Assembly: GCA_021325275.1 (NCBI GenBank)
Contig: JAJPHL010000070.1
Coordinates: 67,387 to 131,386 of the forward strand
DNA length: 64,000 nt
From: Terriglobia bacterium
GTDB taxonomy: Bacteria > Acidobacteriota > Terriglobia > JAJPHL01
Direction: 5' to 3'
Both the position numbers and the translations under genes were made by a program. Shown one piece after another: positions 37,546-45,701 of this stretch (position 1 is the first letter of the stretch; every line of letters starts with the position of its first letter). Below the pieces are notes generated by a model, which worked only from the letters and a program-made list of their open reading frames with translations, was not told where the DNA came from and did not search any database.

Positions 37546-38427
37546 CTACGTCAGGATTGAAATCAGTCCCATCTGATTCACTTGATACGCCGCGCCCGTC
37601 AACGCCTGCGTCGACGTGGAGGTCTGATCGAGTTCCGAAGACAATTTCGCGAGATCGGCGCCCGAGACCGCCGACACGTTCTGCGTCAACTGCGTCTCTT
37701 CGGTGCTGAGGAATTGCGACGTGCTGTTCAGCCGCGAGAGCGTGCTTCCGTAAAACGTGGTTTGGGTGTTCACGTAGTGGAACGCGTTCTGCACTTCGGT
37801 AGTGGCGCCGGCAATTCCCTGCCCTGATTGCAGCGCGCTTGCCAAATCCGCCAGCGACTGAAACATGTCGGCGCCCGACCCGGCGAACAACTTGCTTCCG
37901 GGCACGTTGGTGGGCGTGTATTGTCCCGCGGAGATTTGCGCGCTGTTCACGCCGCTGTTCCCTTGATACGTGACGTTCCCGCTCGCGTCCGCGGAGTACG
38001 GCGGCGCGCTCGTCGCGGTTCCGCCGAACAGATACTGCTCTTGAAATTGCGTGTTCGCCAGGCCCATCAACTGCGTGCGAATGCCCGCAATTTCATTGGC
38101 CACCGCTTGGCGGTCGCTATCCGACATGGTGCCGTTCGCGCCTTCGGTGCCAAGCTGGATCGCTTGGGTGAGCACATTGGAAATGGAACTCAATGCCGAC
38201 GACGCCGTTTGAAGCTGCCCTTGCAGAGACGCCACATTGTTGCCGTACTGCGTGTCGGCGCTTTTCTGAAACGTATCTTCCAACACCTGCGTCGCGCCCG
38301 TGGGATTGTCCGACGGCGCGTTGATCGACGAACCGCTGGAGAGTTCCTGCAACAATTTGGCCTGTTGCGCCTGATTGTCATTCAGGTCGGCGGCGAGAAG
38401 ATCGAGCGGACTGCCTGCTACTCTCAA
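37546..38427 (-). CDS. flgL: Flagellar hook-filament junction protein FlgL
   Basis: A 293-residue flagellin-like protein. The N-terminal helix has LLQELSSGSSINAPSDNPTG, the flagellin-family 'G-x-x-I-N-x-P-SDxP' block, and the C-terminal helix carries QTSTSTQALTGAAYQVNQM. FlgL joins the FlgK junction to the filament and is secreted by the flagellar export apparatus. It is the last gene of the flgF-led operon, 17 bp after flgK. Confidence 0.9.
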   Translation of the reverse strand: MRVAGSPLDLLAADLNDNQAQQAKLLQELSSGSSINAPSDNPTGATQVLEDTFQKSADTQYGNNVASLQGQLQTASSALSSISNVLTQAIQLGTEGANGTMSDSDRQAVANEIAGIRTQLMGLANTQFQEQYLFGGTATSAPPYSADASGNVTYQGNSGVNSAQISAGQYTPTNVPGSKLFAGSGADMFQSLADLASALQSGQGIAGATTEVQNAFHYVNTQTTFYGSTLSRLNSTSQFLSTEETQLTQNVSAVSGADLAKLSSELDQTSTSTQALTGAAYQVNQMGLISILT

Positions 38428-38444
38428 CGGAAATTCTCCTTAGT

Positions 38445-39821
38445 TTACGCCGGCGATCCAAGCGTCAGCGCGGTCTGCGTCATTTGATCCACCACTTCGG
38501 CCACCCGCGCCGCGCCCTGATAGGCGCGTTCGAATTGGATCAAGTTGCTGGCTTCTTCGTCCATGTTTACGCCGGAAATCGAGCTGCGCTGCGATTGCAG
38601 TTGCTGCAAGTTCAGGTTCGACGCGGTTTGCGCAGCGGTGGCGTTGGAAATCTGTCCGGCGATTTGCGACACGATCGTCGTATAGGCGGTTTCGGGACTC
38701 TGCCCGTTCACCACGCCTTGATTCACCAACCCGGCCATGGCCGTCGCGTTGCCGTTGCTGCCGGCGGAACCATCGGAGCTGGCGGCGATCAGCGACGGAT
38801 CGTTGATCTGCACGGTCATTTGCGCGGCCGCACCGGAAATGCCGGCGGGCGGCGGCGAGAAAATATTTCCGCCGGGATTTCCGTTCAAATCCGTGCCCGC
38901 GCGATTCTGAGTGTTCACCGAATTCGAGAGGCCCGCGGCGAGTTGGTCGAGACCCTGCTTCAATCCCGTGATCGTTTGGTCGCGCGCCTGAAGCATTCCG
39001 CCGATACTGCCGCCGGAAATCTCGGACGTGAGGTCTTGTCCTTGATCGAAAATGTGTTGCTGACCGTCGGTGGCGCTCAACTGCGTCGCCAGGGCCTGCG
39101 CCGTATTGCCGACCACCAGCGCCGCGCCGTTCGCGGTGCTGACGCTGACTTCGCCGTCGCCGGCATCGGTGACCGACACGCCGACCAGCGACGACAGCGA
39201 ACGAATCGCGTGCGTCCGTTGATCGATCAGCGCGCCGTTGGTGTCGCCGCTTTGCGTTTGCGAGATTTGCACATTGAGCGTCGCGATTTGCTGTGTGAGC
39301 GTGTTCACTTGCTTCACGTCGTTCGCGATTTCTCCGCTCAGCGCAGTCTGCTGTTGGGTCAAACTCTGCGACGTGGTGTTGAATCCTTGCGCCAGATTCT
39401 GCGCGGCCAGCAGGACGCTTTGCCGTGTCGGAGCATCGCTGGGATTCGTGGAGAGCTGTTGCAGCGAGTTGAAGAAACTGGAAATCGCGGATTGCAAACC
39501 GCTGCCCTGCGAATCGTTGAAGAGCGTTTGTGCTTGCTGCGACGCCGACAGGTACGAAGTCAACGACGACTGGTTGGCGTTCTCTTGATTCAGTTGCAAT
39601 TCCAGAACGTTGTCCGTCACCGACTGGACTTGCGCCACTTCCACGCCGCCGCCCACGGCGGAATTCTGATCGGCGCCGGGCACTTCCTTCAACACGGCCA
39701 CTTGCCGCGTGTAACCCGGCGTGTTGACGTTGGCGATGTTGTTGCCGCTCACCTCCAGCGCCTGCTGCTGGGCTTCTAACGCGGAGGTGGCTACATCCAT
39801 GATGCCGAAGAGATTAGACAT
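38445..39821 (-). CDS. flgK: Flagellar hook-associated protein FlgK
   Basis: A 458-residue hook-filament junction protein. The N-terminus has the rod/hook signature ALEVSGNNIANVNTPGYTRQ near residue 20-40, and the C-terminus has the matching coiled helix DEEASNLIQFERAYQGAARV. The ATG at 39821 (MSNLFGIMDVATS) is preferred to a 12-codon upstream extension. It overlaps the flgN-like gene by 8 bp. Confidence 0.93.
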   Translation of the reverse strand: MSNLFGIMDVATSALEAQQQALEVSGNNIANVNTPGYTRQVAVLKEVPGADQNSAVGGGVEVAQVQSVTDNVLELQLNQENANQSSLTSYLSASQQAQTLFNDSQGSGLQSAISSFFNSLQQLSTNPSDAPTRQSVLLAAQNLAQGFNTTSQSLTQQQTALSGEIANDVKQVNTLTQQIATLNVQISQTQSGDTNGALIDQRTHAIRSLSSLVGVSVTDAGDGEVSVSTANGAALVVGNTAQALATQLSATDGQQHIFDQGQDLTSEISGGSIGGMLQARDQTITGLKQGLDQLAAGLSNSVNTQNRAGTDLNGNPGGNIFSPPPAGISGAAAQMTVQINDPSLIAASSDGSAGSNGNATAMAGLVNQGVVNGQSPETAYTTIVSQIAGQISNATAAQTASNLNLQQLQSQRSSISGVNMDEEASNLIQFERAYQGAARVAEVVDQMTQTALTLGSPA

Positions 39822-40200
39822 ATGTTTGGAAGCCTCCGTTGGCCGGCGCCGGCGCATACTGATTTGCGGGAGCGACGATGTTGAGAAGAGTTTTTACGTT
39901 GCGCGCGGAGCGTCGCGCCACACTGCGGAAAATGTGATTGAGCCGGCGAACTTCCAAACGCGCGACGTTGACCGCGCGCTCGAAATCGGCGTCGCCGGGC
40001 AAGGCCGCGGCCGCCGGCATCTGGCGATTCAGCAGCGCCAAATCGTGGCAGTGCGCCTCGAGTTCTTGTGTGTGGAGAAAAATGCGGTCGAGGTTCATCT
40101 CCGCCATGGCGGCGAGACCGCGATTGTAAACGTCAGCCATCGCGCGCAAGGTTTGCACTTGGCGCTCCAGCAGAGTCCGACGGGGGGTATCGGAGGACAT
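39814..40200 (-). CDS. flgN: FlgN-like export chaperone
   Basis: A 128-residue mostly helical protein directly upstream of flgK. FlgN escorts FlgK and FlgL to the export gate. The helices (LLERQVQTLRAMADVYNRG, FERAVNVARLEVRRLNHIFR) and a C-terminus of the form ARNVKTLLNIVAPANQYAP fit the FlgN pattern weakly. The position and 8-bp overlap with flgK give most of the support. Confidence 0.65.
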   Translation of the reverse strand: MSSDTPRRTLLERQVQTLRAMADVYNRGLAAMAEMNLDRIFLHTQELEAHCHDLALLNRQMPAAAALPGDADFERAVNVARLEVRRLNHIFRSVARRSARNVKTLLNIVAPANQYAPAPANGGFQTYV

Positions 40201-40206
40201 ATCACT

Positions 40207-40398
40207 TCAAGCTCGCGTATCGAACGTGTGTTTTTCCGTTTCGTCGCCGGAATCTTCTTCCTCAGCTTCTTCGTCCGGTTCTTCTGGATCGCGACGCTCC
40301 ACGCGGCGACGCGACCTCCAACCCGACCCAGGCTCGTGGCGTTCCAATCCCGGCGAAGGATCGGTGGGCACCGCGCGGTCGAGACGAAGTAACTCCAT
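40207..40398 (-). CDS. Small acidic protein of unknown function in the flagellar operon
   Basis: A 63-residue frame with a good ribosome site (AAGGA, about 7 nt before the ATG). It has an arginine-rich first half and an acidic second half (PEEPDEEAEEEDSGDE). No family is recognised. It lies 27 bp after flgM and 6 bp before flgN in the same direction, so it is almost certainly co-transcribed. A disordered chaperone or regulator is possible. Confidence 0.5.
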   Translation of the reverse strand: MELLRLDRAVPTDPSPGLERHEPGSGWRSRRRVERRDPEEPDEEAEEEDSGDETEKHTFDTRA

Positions 40399-40425
40399 GA
40401 CTACTTCCTTTGCGCAACAAGCCCA

Positions 40426-40698
40426 CTAGGCCGCCGCGCGCAATTCACTCCACATCGCTCCGGCAATCTGGCCGCTCGACCAGCCGCCGTTCGAAAGCGT
40501 ACTCTGTGCGGCGGCCACGCGGCCGGTGCGCACCTCGGGCAGGCTGTCCAGCGAGTCTTGTAACTGCTGCGTCTGCGCGCTGGACGATAGACTCGTTTTG
40601 TCCGAAACCGTTGTCGATCTCGAGGCGCGCGAGCCGCGCGTTTCACCCAGATGCAAATCTGAAGTTGAAGTAATCGAATTGTAGGCGTTCACCGTCAT
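40426..40698 (-). CDS. flgM: Anti-sigma-28 factor FlgM
   Basis: A 90-residue protein, disordered and Ser/Thr-rich in its first half, with a C-terminal helical region (QQLQDSLDSLPEVRTGRVAA, then QIAGAMWSELRAAA) typical of FlgM. FlgM holds sigma-28 until the hook is complete and is then exported. It starts 1 bp after the flgJ-like gene ends. Placement inside the rod/hook operon fits its role in ordering late gene expression. Confidence 0.8.
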   Translation of the reverse strand: MTVNAYNSITSTSDLHLGETRGSRASRSTTVSDKTSLSSSAQTQQLQDSLDSLPEVRTGRVAAAQSTLSNGGWSSGQIAGAMWSELRAAA

Positions 40699-40699
40699 C

Positions 40700-41080
40700 T
40701 TAGTCTCCTCCTTGATGATCGGCAGACCCCTCGCCAGCCTTTAGCGTTTTCTCAGATAAAGATGAATCGGCATCCGGCGGCGATTCGGCTGCCGCATTCG
40801 GGGCCAACTGGTGCAAGATCATTTTCGCGATGCCGAAGCCGCCGCGCGCCGCCACTCCCACGGCGAACGCATGCGACGCCATGTCGCTCAGCGAGTTCCC
40901 CGAGCCGGAATCGTCGCCGGTCTCGGTCTTCATGCCTTTCCAGATTTGCTCCACCATCATCGACTCGAATTCGCGTGCGCCCTTGCGCAGCTTTTCAAGC
41001 TGCGGCCCGGAGATGTTCGTGGCCGCCGCCGCGTGAGTCGAAATGCCGGGATTCGAGATGGAGGCAATGCCGGACATCAC
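40700..41080 (-). CDS. flgJ: FlgJ-type rod-binding protein (no muramidase domain)
   Basis: A 126-residue protein matching the N-terminal rod-capping half of FlgJ: LEKLRKGAREFESMMVEQIW near residues 29-48. The peptidoglycan hydrolase domain found in enterobacterial FlgJ is absent, so another enzyme must open the wall. The reading starts at GTG 41080 or the ATG at 41077; both overlap the flgI stop. Confidence 0.85.
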   Translation of the reverse strand: MMSGIASISNPGISTHAAAATNISGPQLEKLRKGAREFESMMVEQIWKGMKTETGDDSGSGNSLSDMASHAFAVGVAARGGFGIAKMILHQLAPNAAAESPPDADSSLSEKTLKAGEGSADHQGGD

Positions 41081-42204
41081 AGAATCTCCAACTCGGCTTG
41101 CAGTCCGCCGGCTTCCTTGATCGCTTGCAAGATCGCCACGATATCTCGCGCCGTCGCGCCGATCGCTTGCAATCCGCGCACAAAATCTTCCACGGTCGCG
41201 CCGCCCGGTAGATCGAGGCGCTTGGCGGCGTTGTCCTTGGCCTTCAGCGTCGCCTGCGGGATCACTTCGGTCTTCCCTTGCGAGAGCGCATTTGGTTGCG
41301 ACACTTGATACTCCGTCGACACTTCAATCGAGAGCGCGCCGTGCATGATCGATACGCCGGAAATCTTCACGTCTTTGCCCATCACCACGGTTCCGGTGCG
41401 TTCGTTGACGATCACCTTGGCGCGCGAGGCCACCGCCACCGTGAGATTCTCGATGCGCGCGAGCAGCGCGGGGATCGGCGTCTCGGCCACTTCGCCGCGC
41501 AAGATTTCCACTTCGCGGCCGTCGATCACTTTCGCAACGTCACGGCCAAATTCCTTGTTGATCGCCGCGGCGATGTCGCGCGCCGTGGTGAAATCGGGGT
41601 CGCGCAGTTCGAACGCCAGGCGGCGCAGTTTGTTGAGATCCACCGACGTCTCGCGCTCTACAATCGCGCCGCTCGGGACGCGCGCGACCGTCGGGTGATT
41701 CACCGAAACCGTGTTGCCCGCCGCGCCGGCCGAGTATCCGCCGAGCGTCAGCGCGCCTTGCGCCACCGCGTACACCTGACCGTCGCCGCCTGCGAGCGAT
41801 GTCAGCAGCAGCAATCCACCGCCGAGACTCTTCGCGTCGCCGGTGGAAGACACGGTCACGTCGATGTGCGTACCTGGATGCGCGAACGGCGGCAACGTTG
41901 CCGTGACAAACACCGCCGCAACGTTATTCGCCTTAATCGTGGTCGGAGAAACTTGCAGACCCATGCGCTGCATGATGTTCGCGAGCGTCTGCATGGAAAA
42001 AACAGTTTGCTGCGAGTCGCCGGTGCCTTTCAGGCCCACGACAATTCCGTATCCCACCAACGGATTGTCGCGCACGCCTTCGATCGTGGCGATATCCTTC
42101 AGCCGCGACTCCAATTTGTCGCCGGCAAAAAGGCGGGGTGCGAGGAGGACGGCGCACCCCAAGGCCAGCCGGAAGAACGTCGCGGAGAACTTTGCGCGTG
42201 TCAT
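41077..42204 (-). CDS. flgI: Flagellar P-ring protein FlgI
   Basis: A 375-residue periplasmic protein with a signal peptide (FRLALGCAVLLAPRLFA). RLKDIATIEGVRDNPLVGYG and VVGLKGTGDSQQT are the family start. The C-terminal LQAIGATARDIVAILQAIKE is highly conserved. FlgI forms the bushing in the peptidoglycan layer, confirming a Gram-negative envelope. Confidence 0.95.
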   Translation of the reverse strand: MTRAKFSATFFRLALGCAVLLAPRLFAGDKLESRLKDIATIEGVRDNPLVGYGIVVGLKGTGDSQQTVFSMQTLANIMQRMGLQVSPTTIKANNVAAVFVTATLPPFAHPGTHIDVTVSSTGDAKSLGGGLLLLTSLAGGDGQVYAVAQGALTLGGYSAGAAGNTVSVNHPTVARVPSGAIVERETSVDLNKLRRLAFELRDPDFTTARDIAAAINKEFGRDVAKVIDGREVEILRGEVAETPIPALLARIENLTVAVASRAKVIVNERTGTVVMGKDVKISGVSIMHGALSIEVSTEYQVSQPNALSQGKTEVIPQATLKAKDNAAKRLDLPGGATVEDFVRGLQAIGATARDIVAILQAIKEAGGLQAELEIL

Positions 42205-42221
42205 AGTTTAGAATCTCAACC

Positions 42222-42926
42222 TTAAAACCCAAAGATCTTCAGCAAGAAACTGGTGATTTTGTTGGGCGGACGCACACCGTCGCTGATGACACCTTTACCC
42301 TTCAGCTCGATTTCCAGGTTGCCGAGTTGGCTCGAAGCGATGGAATTGTCGAAGGCCACGTCGCCGGGACGCGCCATGCCGCGAAGAATGATCGTTTGGC
42401 GCTCGTTGTTCATGTCCACTTCGCGGACCGCTTCCACAACCATCACGCCGTTCGGCAGCACCGCGATCACACGCGCCGTGAGGTCGGTGTTCAAAGAACT
42501 GCTCGATCCATTCGTCGTCGCGCCGGAAAGCGCTTGGTTCGAGTTCGGCGAGAACATGTTTTGCAAGGTGCTGGTCGCGCCGATTTTCCCGATCGGAATG
42601 TTCGTCAGGCTGGAACTCGCGGAGAGCGTGCGTTTCGAAGAGACGGTGCCCGCGGCCTGGCTCGTGGTGGCGACCACGATGTGGATCACCATCAGGTCGT
42701 TTACGCTGCGCGCCTTGTAGTCGGGCGCGAGCGCGGAGAACGTGTTGGCCGGGCGAAACAAGCTGCCTTCCGACAACGGTTCTTCCGACATCTGCTGTTT
42801 CGCCTTCGTCACATAGTCGGCGGAAGCGTTCTGTACGATGGCGGGTTTCTTCTTGCCGATGGGCAGCGGTCCTGCCGCCAACGGCAGGGCGGCCGCGATC
42901 AGGCACGCCAGTCGAAAACTTTTCAC
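42222..42926 (-). CDS. flgH: Flagellar L-ring protein FlgH
   Basis: A 234-residue outer-membrane ring protein. It has a signal sequence ending near LAAGPL; the usual lipobox Cys is not evident. SLFRPANTFSALAPDYKARS, NDLMVIHIV and the C-terminal NSIASSQLGNLEIELKGKGV are family motifs. The start is GTG 42926, overlapping the flgA stop as GTGA. Confidence 0.93.
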   Translation of the reverse strand: MKSFRLACLIAAALPLAAGPLPIGKKKPAIVQNASADYVTKAKQQMSEEPLSEGSLFRPANTFSALAPDYKARSVNDLMVIHIVVATTSQAAGTVSSKRTLSASSSLTNIPIGKIGATSTLQNMFSPNSNQALSGATTNGSSSSLNTDLTARVIAVLPNGVMVVEAVREVDMNNERQTIILRGMARPGDVAFDNSIASSQLGNLEIELKGKGVISDGVRPPNKITSFLLKIFGF

Positions 42927-43624
42927 TGTTGTTCTCCCTTGAGTTGGTCGCGGCCCACCACGACCGCCTTGAAAATATGATTGCTGTCCGGCGCGCGCAC
43001 TCGCACAGCCTGGCCTTCGCCGCCGGAATCGAGCGGGGCGACTTGGCGTGATAACACAAATCCCACGCCTTGTACGGTGAGGGTGGCCGGGCGTCCGGCG
43101 ACCACAAGCGCCGTCGCGAAAGCTGCGGCCCCACTCAGCGAAAGCGCTTGGGAAAACATCTCGGGACGCAGCACTTCTCCGGCGGCGATCTTGCGGCGCG
43201 CGTAGCGCCCAGCCAATTCCTCGATCGAAGGCGAAGCCAGCGCGGTCAAAGGACGATACTCGACGGCGGCGGCATTCGCGGAAAGCTCCTCGCTCGCCGC
43301 GATATCGTGTGCGGCGACGAGTGCGGGAAACAGAATGGATCCGCTGACGCCCACTTCAAACGCGTGCTTGTGGGAGTCGCGGAGTTGGAAATAATTCTTG
43401 GCGTGCACGGGATCGTACTCGATGCGCGCGACTTCCAGAGTCTCGCTGACCGAGCCAATCACGTCGAGCTTCAGTTCGCCGAAGCGCGCGCCGCGCCGTT
43501 GTAGTTCGCGTTTGATCACGGTCATGACATCGCCGGATTGTGGGCCGGGCTGCGCGGAAAGCAATCCGCCCCAGATCAGCGATGCGGTCACGATGAGAAG
43601 CGCGAGTTTGAGGAGTGTCTTCAT
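42923..43624 (-). CDS. flgA: Flagellar P-ring assembly chaperone FlgA
   Basis: A 233-residue periplasmic protein with an N-terminal signal and a C-terminal SAF domain: RYARRKIAAGEVLRPEMF followed by LTVQGVGFVLSRQVAPLDSG. FlgA helps FlgI polymerise around the rod. It lies between flgG and flgH, 2 bp after flgG. Confidence 0.88.
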   Translation of the reverse strand: MKTLLKLALLIVTASLIWGGLLSAQPGPQSGDVMTVIKRELQRRGARFGELKLDVIGSVSETLEVARIEYDPVHAKNYFQLRDSHKHAFEVGVSGSILFPALVAAHDIAASEELSANAAAVEYRPLTALASPSIEELAGRYARRKIAAGEVLRPEMFSQALSLSGAAAFATALVVAGRPATLTVQGVGFVLSRQVAPLDSGGEGQAVRVRAPDSNHIFKAVVVGRDQLKGEQQ

Positions 43625-43626
43625 GT

Positions 43627-44418
43627 TTAGCGAGCCATTTGATTCACGCCTTGAATCATCTGGTCGGCGGCTTGCACGACCTTCTGGTTCGACTCATAGG
43701 CGCGCTGCGTCAAAATCATTTGCACAAACTCGTCGACCACGCTGACGTTCGACGATTCGATCATTCCCTGCTGCAATGTGCCCAGACCTTCCGATCCGCC
43801 AGGCGCGCCGGTGATCGGCTCGCCGGAGGAACTGGTGGGCAGGAACAAGTTTTGTCCCACGCTATTCAATCCGCCGGGATTGGCAAAGGTCGCGAGCTGA
43901 ATTTGTCCCACTTGCTGCGACGCGGTTTGTCCCGGCAGCGTGACGGTGACGGTTCCGTCTTGTCCGATGCTGATGTTGGTGGCGTTCACGGGAATCGTGA
44001 TCGCCGGTTGCAGCGGATTTCCGTTCGACGTGACCATGTTTCCCTGGTTGTCGAGCTGAAACGTACCCGAGCGCGTGTAGGCAATGCCGCCGTTCGGCTG
44101 GCGCACTTGGAAAAATCCCGCGCCTTGAATCGTGAGATCGAGCGGATTGCCGGTGGTCGTGAGATCGCCTTCCGTCTGGATCACTTCGGAAGCGGCGCTT
44201 TGCGTACCCAAGCCGATTTGCAATCCCGCGCTCACTTGCGTGGACTGCGTGGCGTTCGATCCGGGCACTACCATGTTTTGGTAGAGCAAATCCTGAAACT
44301 GCAAACGGCGTTTGCGGAATCCCGCCGTGGAGGCGTTCGCCAAATTGTTGGCGACGTTATCGAGATTCATCTGCTGGGCGTTCATGCCGCTGGCCGCTGT
44401 GTAGAGAGCGCGAAACAT
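43627..44418 (-). CDS. flgG: Distal rod protein FlgG
   Basis: A 263-residue rod protein. The N-terminus is MFRALYTAASGMNAQQMNLD with the NVANNLANASTAGFRK motif, and the C-terminus carries SNVSVVDEFVQMILTQRAYE, the expected coiled-coil partner. Length fits FlgG exactly. It is 12 bp after flgF. Confidence 0.95.
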   Translation of the reverse strand: MFRALYTAASGMNAQQMNLDNVANNLANASTAGFRKRRLQFQDLLYQNMVVPGSNATQSTQVSAGLQIGLGTQSAASEVIQTEGDLTTTGNPLDLTIQGAGFFQVRQPNGGIAYTRSGTFQLDNQGNMVTSNGNPLQPAITIPVNATNISIGQDGTVTVTLPGQTASQQVGQIQLATFANPGGLNSVGQNLFLPTSSSGEPITGAPGGSEGLGTLQQGMIESSNVSVVDEFVQMILTQRAYESNQKVVQAADQMIQGVNQMAR

Positions 44419-44430
44419 TTTCTTCTCCTG

Positions 44431-45219
44431 TTAACTCTTGGCGACTTGGTCGATGGCCGTCTTATTGAAATCCGTGTTGAACATGGCGAGCGCCTTCTGA
44501 AGCATCTCCGCGCCGCGTTGCAATTCGATCAAGCCGACGCTGCCGTTGACGACGTTCATGTTCGATTCCTCGAGAAATCCTTGCTGCACCGTGGAATTCG
44601 TAGCGACGGTTGCTGTGGCGCCGGGCGCGGCCGCAAAAAGCGATCCGCCGAGCGCGACGGGCGGCGTGGATTTATCGAACTCCACAATTTGAATTTGGTC
44701 GACAGCCGTGCCGTTCACCGTGATCGATCCGTCCGAGCCGATTGACATTTGTCCCGGCGGAACTTGGATTGGACCATTCTTACCAAGCACGGCGCCGCCG
44801 CCCGCGCTAAGTAATTCCCCATTAGGACCAAGTGAAAGCGATCCGTTGCGCGTGTAGGCCGTGCCCGAGGGCGTAGAAACGGCGATGAATCCGGGGCCGT
44901 TGATGGCGATATCGGTGTCGCTGCCGGTGTGTGCGAGACTGCCGGAACTGAAATCGGTAGTGGATCCGCCGAGAACCACAAAGTTGTTGACGGCGTGATT
45001 GATAGCGTTGGAAACCACGCTGTGATGCGGTGCTCCGCCGGCCAGCGTGGCCGTGGCGCCCGGGGCGCCGGTGGCAAGTTGCGCCTGCATCGCGGAGTAG
45101 AACTCGCGCTGCGCCTTGAATCCGGTGGCTCCGCTGTTGGCCAGATTGTTGGCGGCCACGTCAAGGGCCTGCATCTTGGCAATCAATCCGGTCGTCGCCG
45201 CGTAGAATCCGCTATTCAC
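44431..45219 (-). CDS. flgF: Proximal rod protein FlgF
   Basis: A 262-residue rod protein and first gene of the operon. MNSGFYAATTGLIAKMQALD, AANNLANSGATGFKAQRE and the C-terminal EESNMNVVNGSVGLIELQRG are characteristic of FlgF. The start is GTG 45219 with GGAGG at 45224-45228. That ribosome site is contained in a 6-bp hairpin, and a sigma-54-type promoter lies just upstream. Confidence 0.9.
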   Translation of the reverse strand: MNSGFYAATTGLIAKMQALDVAANNLANSGATGFKAQREFYSAMQAQLATGAPGATATLAGGAPHHSVVSNAINHAVNNFVVLGGSTTDFSSGSLAHTGSDTDIAINGPGFIAVSTPSGTAYTRNGSLSLGPNGELLSAGGGAVLGKNGPIQVPPGQMSIGSDGSITVNGTAVDQIQIVEFDKSTPPVALGGSLFAAAPGATATVATNSTVQQGFLEESNMNVVNGSVGLIELQRGAEMLQKALAMFNTDFNKTAIDQVAKS

Positions 45220-45222
45220 ATA

Positions 45223-45238
45223 TCCTCCGCAAGGAGGA
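45223..45238 (-). promoter_or_regulatory. Hairpin that hides the flgF ribosome site
   Basis: On the minus strand TCCTCC-TTGC-GGAGGA forms a 6-bp stem with a four-base loop. The 3' arm is the flgF Shine-Dalgarno sequence. The predicted transcript would begin within or next to the 5' arm, so exact start-site choice decides whether the hairpin forms. Confidence 0.55.
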
Positions 45239-45240
45239 GT

Positions 45241-45256
45241 AGCAAGCAGCAGGCCA
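45241..45256 (-). promoter_or_regulatory. Sigma-54-type promoter of the flagellar operon
   Basis: The minus strand reads TGGC-N7-TTGCT with exactly ten bases between the GG and GC dinucleotides, the diagnostic -24/-12 spacing. A start site near 45230 would give a leader of about 11 nt before the flgF GTG. Sigma-54 control of rod and hook genes is common in flagellated bacteria. The activator binding site is not identified. Confidence 0.6.
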
Positions 45257-45290: not shown

Positions 45291-45701
45291 TCAGGAGTCG
45301 TACGGGGTTAGGAAAATCTCACGATCGTAGTGGACGATGGCGATCCTTAGGCGGTCGAGCCAGCCGTTGCGGCCGAGCAAATCGCGGGGCATGCTCAATT
45401 CTCCGGTGAAATAGACGAGGCTAGTGAAGTCCACGCCGAAGCATGTAATCGTGACCTCGTGCTCGAATGCGTCGAACCTTCCAGCCAATCCACGGAATGT
45501 CCTACGCGGTCCCGACTCGAGCTCGATATTCAACCATTCTGCCCAACGTCGATCGAACACGCAAAAGTCCGCTCCCGTATCGAGCTTGGCAGCAACCTCA
45601 ACATAGCTGCCGTTGGCAGAGAGTCCGATCGGAACGAAAATGGCCTGCTGCGGATCGTCTTTGTAGACGTGGCGGTTTTCGAACCGCAGATCGTACGGCA
45701 T
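45291..45701 (-). CDS. Retropepsin-like aspartic protease-fold protein
   Basis: A 136-residue single-domain protein. The catalytic-type motif is AAKLDTGADFCVFDRRWAEW (DTGA at about residues 41-44), and the second half has RDLLGRNGWLDRLRIAIVHY, the 'iLGr' strand of retropepsins. It would act as a dimer if active. No signal peptide is present. A GAGGA ribosome site lies 4 nt upstream. It starts 3 bp after the DUF5678-like gene and is presumably co-translated with it. Confidence 0.72.
   Translation of the reverse strand: MPYDLRFENRHVYKDDPQQAIFVPIGLSANGSYVEVAAKLDTGADFCVFDRRWAEWLNIELESGPRRTFRGLAGRFDAFEHEVTITCFGVDFTSLVYFTGELSMPRDLLGRNGWLDRLRIAIVHYDREIFLTPYDS

Follow-up and report, generated by a model that had tools for sequence, protein, structure and literature searches.

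A sigma-54 promoter beside the flgF start codon of a Terriglobia bacterium encodes one arm of a Shine-Dalgarno-masking hairpin that may filter out read-through RNA

The window analysed here, a 64,000-nucleotide stretch of a Terriglobia bacterium genome, carries on its minus strand a flagellar operon headed by flgF, with two co-directional ORFs upstream of it. The promoter, the hairpin and the genes at this junction are listed in Table 1. In the position of flgJ (window 40700-41080) there is just a short rod-binding ORF, which has a weak match to PF10135 and is without a lytic domain.

Table 1. Promoter, hairpin and genes around the start of the flgF operon (window positions; minus signs before small numbers refer to the predicted transcription start).
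Feature	Position	Strand	Basis or remark
Sigma-54 promoter core, TGGC (-26..-23), N7, TTGC (-15..-12)	45256-45253 and 45245-45242; core 45242..45256	-	Exact sequence and class-wide conservation
Hairpin 5' arm TCCTCC, promoter positions -8..-3	45233..45238	-	Sequence
Hairpin loop TTGC, contains the predicted start	45229..45232	-	Sequence
Predicted sigma-54 start, +1 = G, within the hairpin loop	45230	-	Derived from the position of the -12 C, 45242
Hairpin 3' arm GGAGGA, the flgF Shine-Dalgarno, +3..+8	45223..45228	-	Sequence
Predicted 11-nt leader of the sigma-54 flgF mRNA, GCGGAGGATAT	45220..45230	-	Counted from the predicted +1
flgF, GTG start 45219-45217, opening gene of the operon	44431..45219	-	Pfam rod/hook domains
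flgG, flgA, flgH, flgI, short FlgJ-like rod-binding ORF, flgM, ORF(s) without assignment, flgK, flagellin-type flgL	37546..44418	-	
Co-directional ORF upstream of flgF, Asp_protease_2	45291..45701	-	Stops 34 bp before the -24 element; read-through RNA could originate here
Small co-directional ORF upstream of flgF, DUF5678	46076-45705	-	With Asp_protease_2, occupies the place of cheY/cheX-like genes in many relatives

An initial annotation of this DNA had described a promoter of the form TGGC-N7-TTGCT with correct -24/-12 spacing, and this is present exactly at 45256-45241 of the minus strand, with T45241 directly 3' of the TTGC element. The GG and GC are 10 bp apart in a TGGC-N8-TGC context, which is spacing of the sigma-54 type. 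The promoter word by itself is weak, as TTGGC-N8-TGCW has 178 matches in the 6.86 Mb genome versus 129 for a reversed control; position and conservation make the case a strongly supported one. GG-N10-GC is conserved throughout the class in a constant position ahead of flgF, and a high-scoring sigma-54 site falls within the last 60 nt of 87% of 194 same-class flgF upstream regions, compared with 1% of 776 control windows taken from more distal upstream sequence. In the aligned promoter profile the sites were chosen by score, so that its GG and GC are partly built in. The comparison loci were drawn from the class, from family f10 and from the phylum, with no other flgF from the window's own family or order among them; one remote related locus was left out. 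Most of the same-phylum genomes of other classes (n=20) have a candidate sigma-54 site as well, usually further from the start codon.

The window's genome contains a single rpoN. Directly upstream of flgBC-fliE it encodes an AAA+ sigma-54 activator with a Fis-type helix-turn-helix (L138:3-539), which is likely a flagellar regulator. Conservation, the one rpoN gene and this activator gene back the earlier view that a sigma-54 promoter heads the flgF operon, and we regard sigma-54 control of these genes as close to certain. A general sigma-54 site at flgB was also considered and rejected, since it was seen in some f5 loci only (L126 and L137). In these two genomes the flgB site lies ~13-14 nt before the ATG, and a leaderless flgB is possible there.

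The numbering of sigma-54 elements runs from the start site, and the second element's C takes the number -12. Since this C is at 45242, the predicted +1 is G45230, which is in the loop of the hairpin and 3 nt past the 5' arm, and not at the edge of the arm where it had previously been placed. The hairpin itself had been described correctly: TCCTCC-TTGC-GGAGGA, the flgF Shine-Dalgarno (SD) in its 3' arm and the GTG at 45219 are all present as quoted. Because the 5' arm occupies -8..-3 it is promoter DNA, and it very probably lies outside the sigma-54 mRNA. With this arm absent and a leader of just 11 nt, a hairpin switch acting on the sigma-54 mRNA is unlikely. Folding of the window sequence predicts an unpaired probability for the SD of 0.0008 in an RNA beginning at -60 versus 0.29 in an RNA beginning at +1, the latter folding differently and leaving the SD partly open.

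Pairing between promoter and SD was evaluated in relatives by a swap test, in which the promoter of each species (-28..-1) was paired with the leader of every other species and the folding stability was compared. Across all leadered relatives, a species' own promoter and own leader formed more stable structures than the swaps (z -6.7). The excess was retained when swaps were kept within genus (z -3.8), when the richest genus, g10, was removed (z -5.3), and when each genus was represented by one sequence (z -4.0, with p < 0.05 in each of 60 draws). Own pairing also exceeded that of 12 composition-matched promoters (p = 0.001). Controls comprising three regions further upstream, the coding start and the reversed promoter gave no pairing signal, nor did the SD of flgG taken from these genomes. 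A first permutation test with the 5' side limited to -14..-1 had given a weak signal (p ~0.02), because several genera have their arm in the -24/-12 spacer. A larger set was then tested with the 5' side extended to -28..-1, an extension made after looking at the sequences, and for this reason the controls and within-genus tests outweigh the headline z.

Counts of stems point in the same direction. Watson-Crick stems of at least 7 bp numbered 14 against an expectation of 5.2, and stems of at least 8 bp with G-U pairs numbered 38 against 19 expected overall and 26 expected within genus. Allowing G-U pairs increased the excess (z 6.6 versus 4.2). In the pairing relatives nearly all partners of the SD lie upstream of +1; some genera carry the 5' arm at -13..-1, others within the -24/-12 spacer, and the arm sequences differ. 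Examples are GCAACCTCC/GGAGGTTGC in L175 (-13..-5), TCTCCCTT/AAGGGAGA in L023 (-10..-3), and CTCCTGC/GCAGGAG within the -24/-12 spacer in L227, L229 and L230. The excess is carried by family f10, and it was not significant in f4 (z -0.8), in f6 (z -0.2) or in all non-f10 sequences pooled (z -1.4).

The predicted flgF leader is 10-24 nt long in most SD-bearing relatives. In genera g22, g59, g49 and g90 it is 1-2 nt (at most 3 nt in 45 of 47 sequences), since the -12 element of these flgF genes (L045-L097, L262-L270) is found 12-13 nt before the ATG, and they are without an SD. Their flgF mRNA is thus predicted to be effectively leaderless. A few further predicted leaderless cases that look independent occur in g10, g86 and g128 (L222, L179, L248, L252). 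An SD word was found in 0 of 50 leaderless cases versus 106 of 113 leadered ones, while anti-SD words occur in the promoters of 8 of 45 leaderless versus 69 of 112 leadered relatives, a contrast that comes largely from one clade. A leaderless sigma-54 regulon in g22 was rejected, as a strict pattern search of the g22 genomes yielded essentially flgF alone. In family f36 of the same phylum (L278-L284), flgF leaders are ~32 nt long and an SD-masking hairpin can be drawn by eye, its 5' side straddling the predicted start (for example CCTCTCG/CGAGAGG in L282).

Since the pairing joins promoter DNA to the leader, it can matter only in RNA that crosses the promoter. This leads us to a model, for and against which we see the chances as evenly balanced, in which the flgF hairpin is a filter that blocks translation of read-through RNA and from which the sigma-54 mRNA escapes; for the window species taken alone we put the probability lower than across the group. 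Transcription from the sigma-54 promoter would start ~11 nt before the start codon, within the loop, leaving the SD free. RNA entering from a co-directional upstream gene would carry both arms and have its SD locked in the hairpin, so that only sigma-54-initiated messages would yield FlgF. Genes resembling cheY and cheX (by reading of the sequences, and by phmmer between loci) are found upstream in 34 of 54 relatives' loci, always co-directional. The switch of translation in the initial annotation would in this way survive in a changed form, with start-site position deciding whether an RNA contains both arms and hides its SD; nothing found speaks for the protein that had been offered as an alternative trigger. 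Covariation in relatives, chiefly in a different family within the class, favours this changed form. Of the two elements whose conservation before flgF had been proposed as a check, the promoter is conserved, and an excess of hairpin pairing is seen mainly in f10.

In the leaderless relatives the same end would be reached otherwise, as a long RNA would have no SD to use. Extended to the whole class, flgF would be translatable only from RNA starting at the sigma-54 site, by way of either a promoter-masked SD or a leaderless mRNA without an SD. We hold this broader reading tentatively, at somewhat less than even chances, and attach the same reserve to its corollary, that the promoter sets translation along with transcription and insulates the flagellar operon from read-through of chemotaxis or other upstream genes. 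If true, it would account for a co-directional operon being kept off without a terminator, and two alternative forms of such control, masked SD and leaderless, would be found in one bacterial class. It would also serve as a warning that an inverted repeat over an SD beside a promoter may be absent from the mRNA.

An alternative of real weight, though short of an even chance, is that the hairpin is a by-product of composition, with a pyrimidine-rich promoter (-23 to -1) near a purine-rich SD frequently producing complementary 6-mers that have no function in the window species. The window hairpin is unusual relative to dinucleotide shuffles (p ~0.01), a null that is too easy because of exactly this composition, and it is ordinary relative to other species, as 11% of other promoters give a stem of at least 6 bp with the window leader and the window promoter gives one with 43% of other leaders. 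SD accessibility in the read-through RNA was 0.21 with the window's own promoter and 0.21-0.24 with that of another species. It was therefore rejected as a test of selection, for a foreign promoter masks the SD equally and accessibility alone is no proof of selection; much of the masking would arise from pyrimidines of the promoter facing purines of the SD. Leadered promoters are 68% pyrimidine, and the lack of an excess in f4 and f6 is likewise in keeping with a compositional origin. Chance and composition can thus still hold for the window's 6-bp stem. They leave unexplained the excess in the group as a whole, where own pairing beats within-genus swaps and composition-matched promoters and where the flgG, upstream and reversed controls are null, even if the single window species may still fit.

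Two other explanations fare less well. A role outside translation, either as a DNA-level inverted repeat recognised by a regulator or as a processing or terminator element of the upstream transcript, would suit a repeat that overlaps a promoter and follows co-directional genes. It appears improbable, as the sequence and position of the arm vary among species while pairing is kept, the gain from G-U pairs favours RNA, and the stem has no T run after it. Least probable, and by our estimate very much so, is the model of the initial annotation, in which the sigma-54 flgF mRNA carries the hairpin at its 5' end and has its translation gated by a protein or by small shifts of the start site. The stem would be stable if transcribed (~-10 kcal/mol), but the predicted start comes 3 nt after the end of the 5' arm, a position that the annotation itself had named as speaking against such a gate. 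The SD partners upstream of +1 in the relatives argue against it too, as do the several genera whose arm is in the -24/-12 spacer, which a sigma-54 mRNA cannot contain.

Sigma-54 flagellar promoters in Caulobacter, Vibrio and Helicobacter have -24/-12 elements driving rod and hook genes, with an NtrC-type activator in the flagellar cluster. The flgF promoter differs from that class in its predicted leader, which is 11 nt here and, in one clade of relatives, 1-2 nt. In IS10 and IS50, RNA entering from outside forms a hairpin that hides the first gene's ribosome-binding site; these differ from flgF in being mobile elements, with a transposase gene and another class of promoter. Leaderless genes have been predicted at 10-19% in three Acidobacteria (PMC3160421), and the text of that survey does not mention sigma-54. 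The flgF genes of g22, g59, g49 and g90 would resemble leaderless bacterial genes, having a predicted mRNA 5' end at the start codon and no SD, while flgF of the window, with a predicted 11-nt leader containing GGAGG, is not of this kind. A literature search, with subscription journals outside its coverage, returned nothing on point, either for leaderless flagellar genes under sigma-54 or for a hairpin acting on read-through in flagellar operons.

The closest likeness to the proposed read-through filter is phage T4 gene e, encoding lysozyme, in which a promoter adjoining the ribosome-binding site lies in DNA that also specifies the 5' half of a hairpin masking the SD, so that long transcripts are blocked and short ones translated. 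In gene e the late promoters are found where this half of the inhibitory stem is encoded, the longer early transcripts give 100-fold less lysozyme, and the same arrangement is found in soc, 49 and I-TevI (PMC3014915). As far as we found, such a promoter-in-arm device is known from phage T4 and not from flagella. At flgF the arm that would pair with the SD (45238-45233) likewise lies upstream of the predicted +1 at 45230, and folding predicts an SD that is masked in the long RNA and freer in the short one, an effect that is not specific to the window's own promoter. The two systems differ in that gene e has a phage late promoter, serves the timing of lysis and is experimentally proven, while flgF belongs to a chromosomal sigma-54 flagellar operon whose arrangement is known from sequence alone. 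Our best reading is that flgF may work like the gene e block, and it would then provide a chromosomal case of 5'-end-gated translation, hitherto best known from phage T4.
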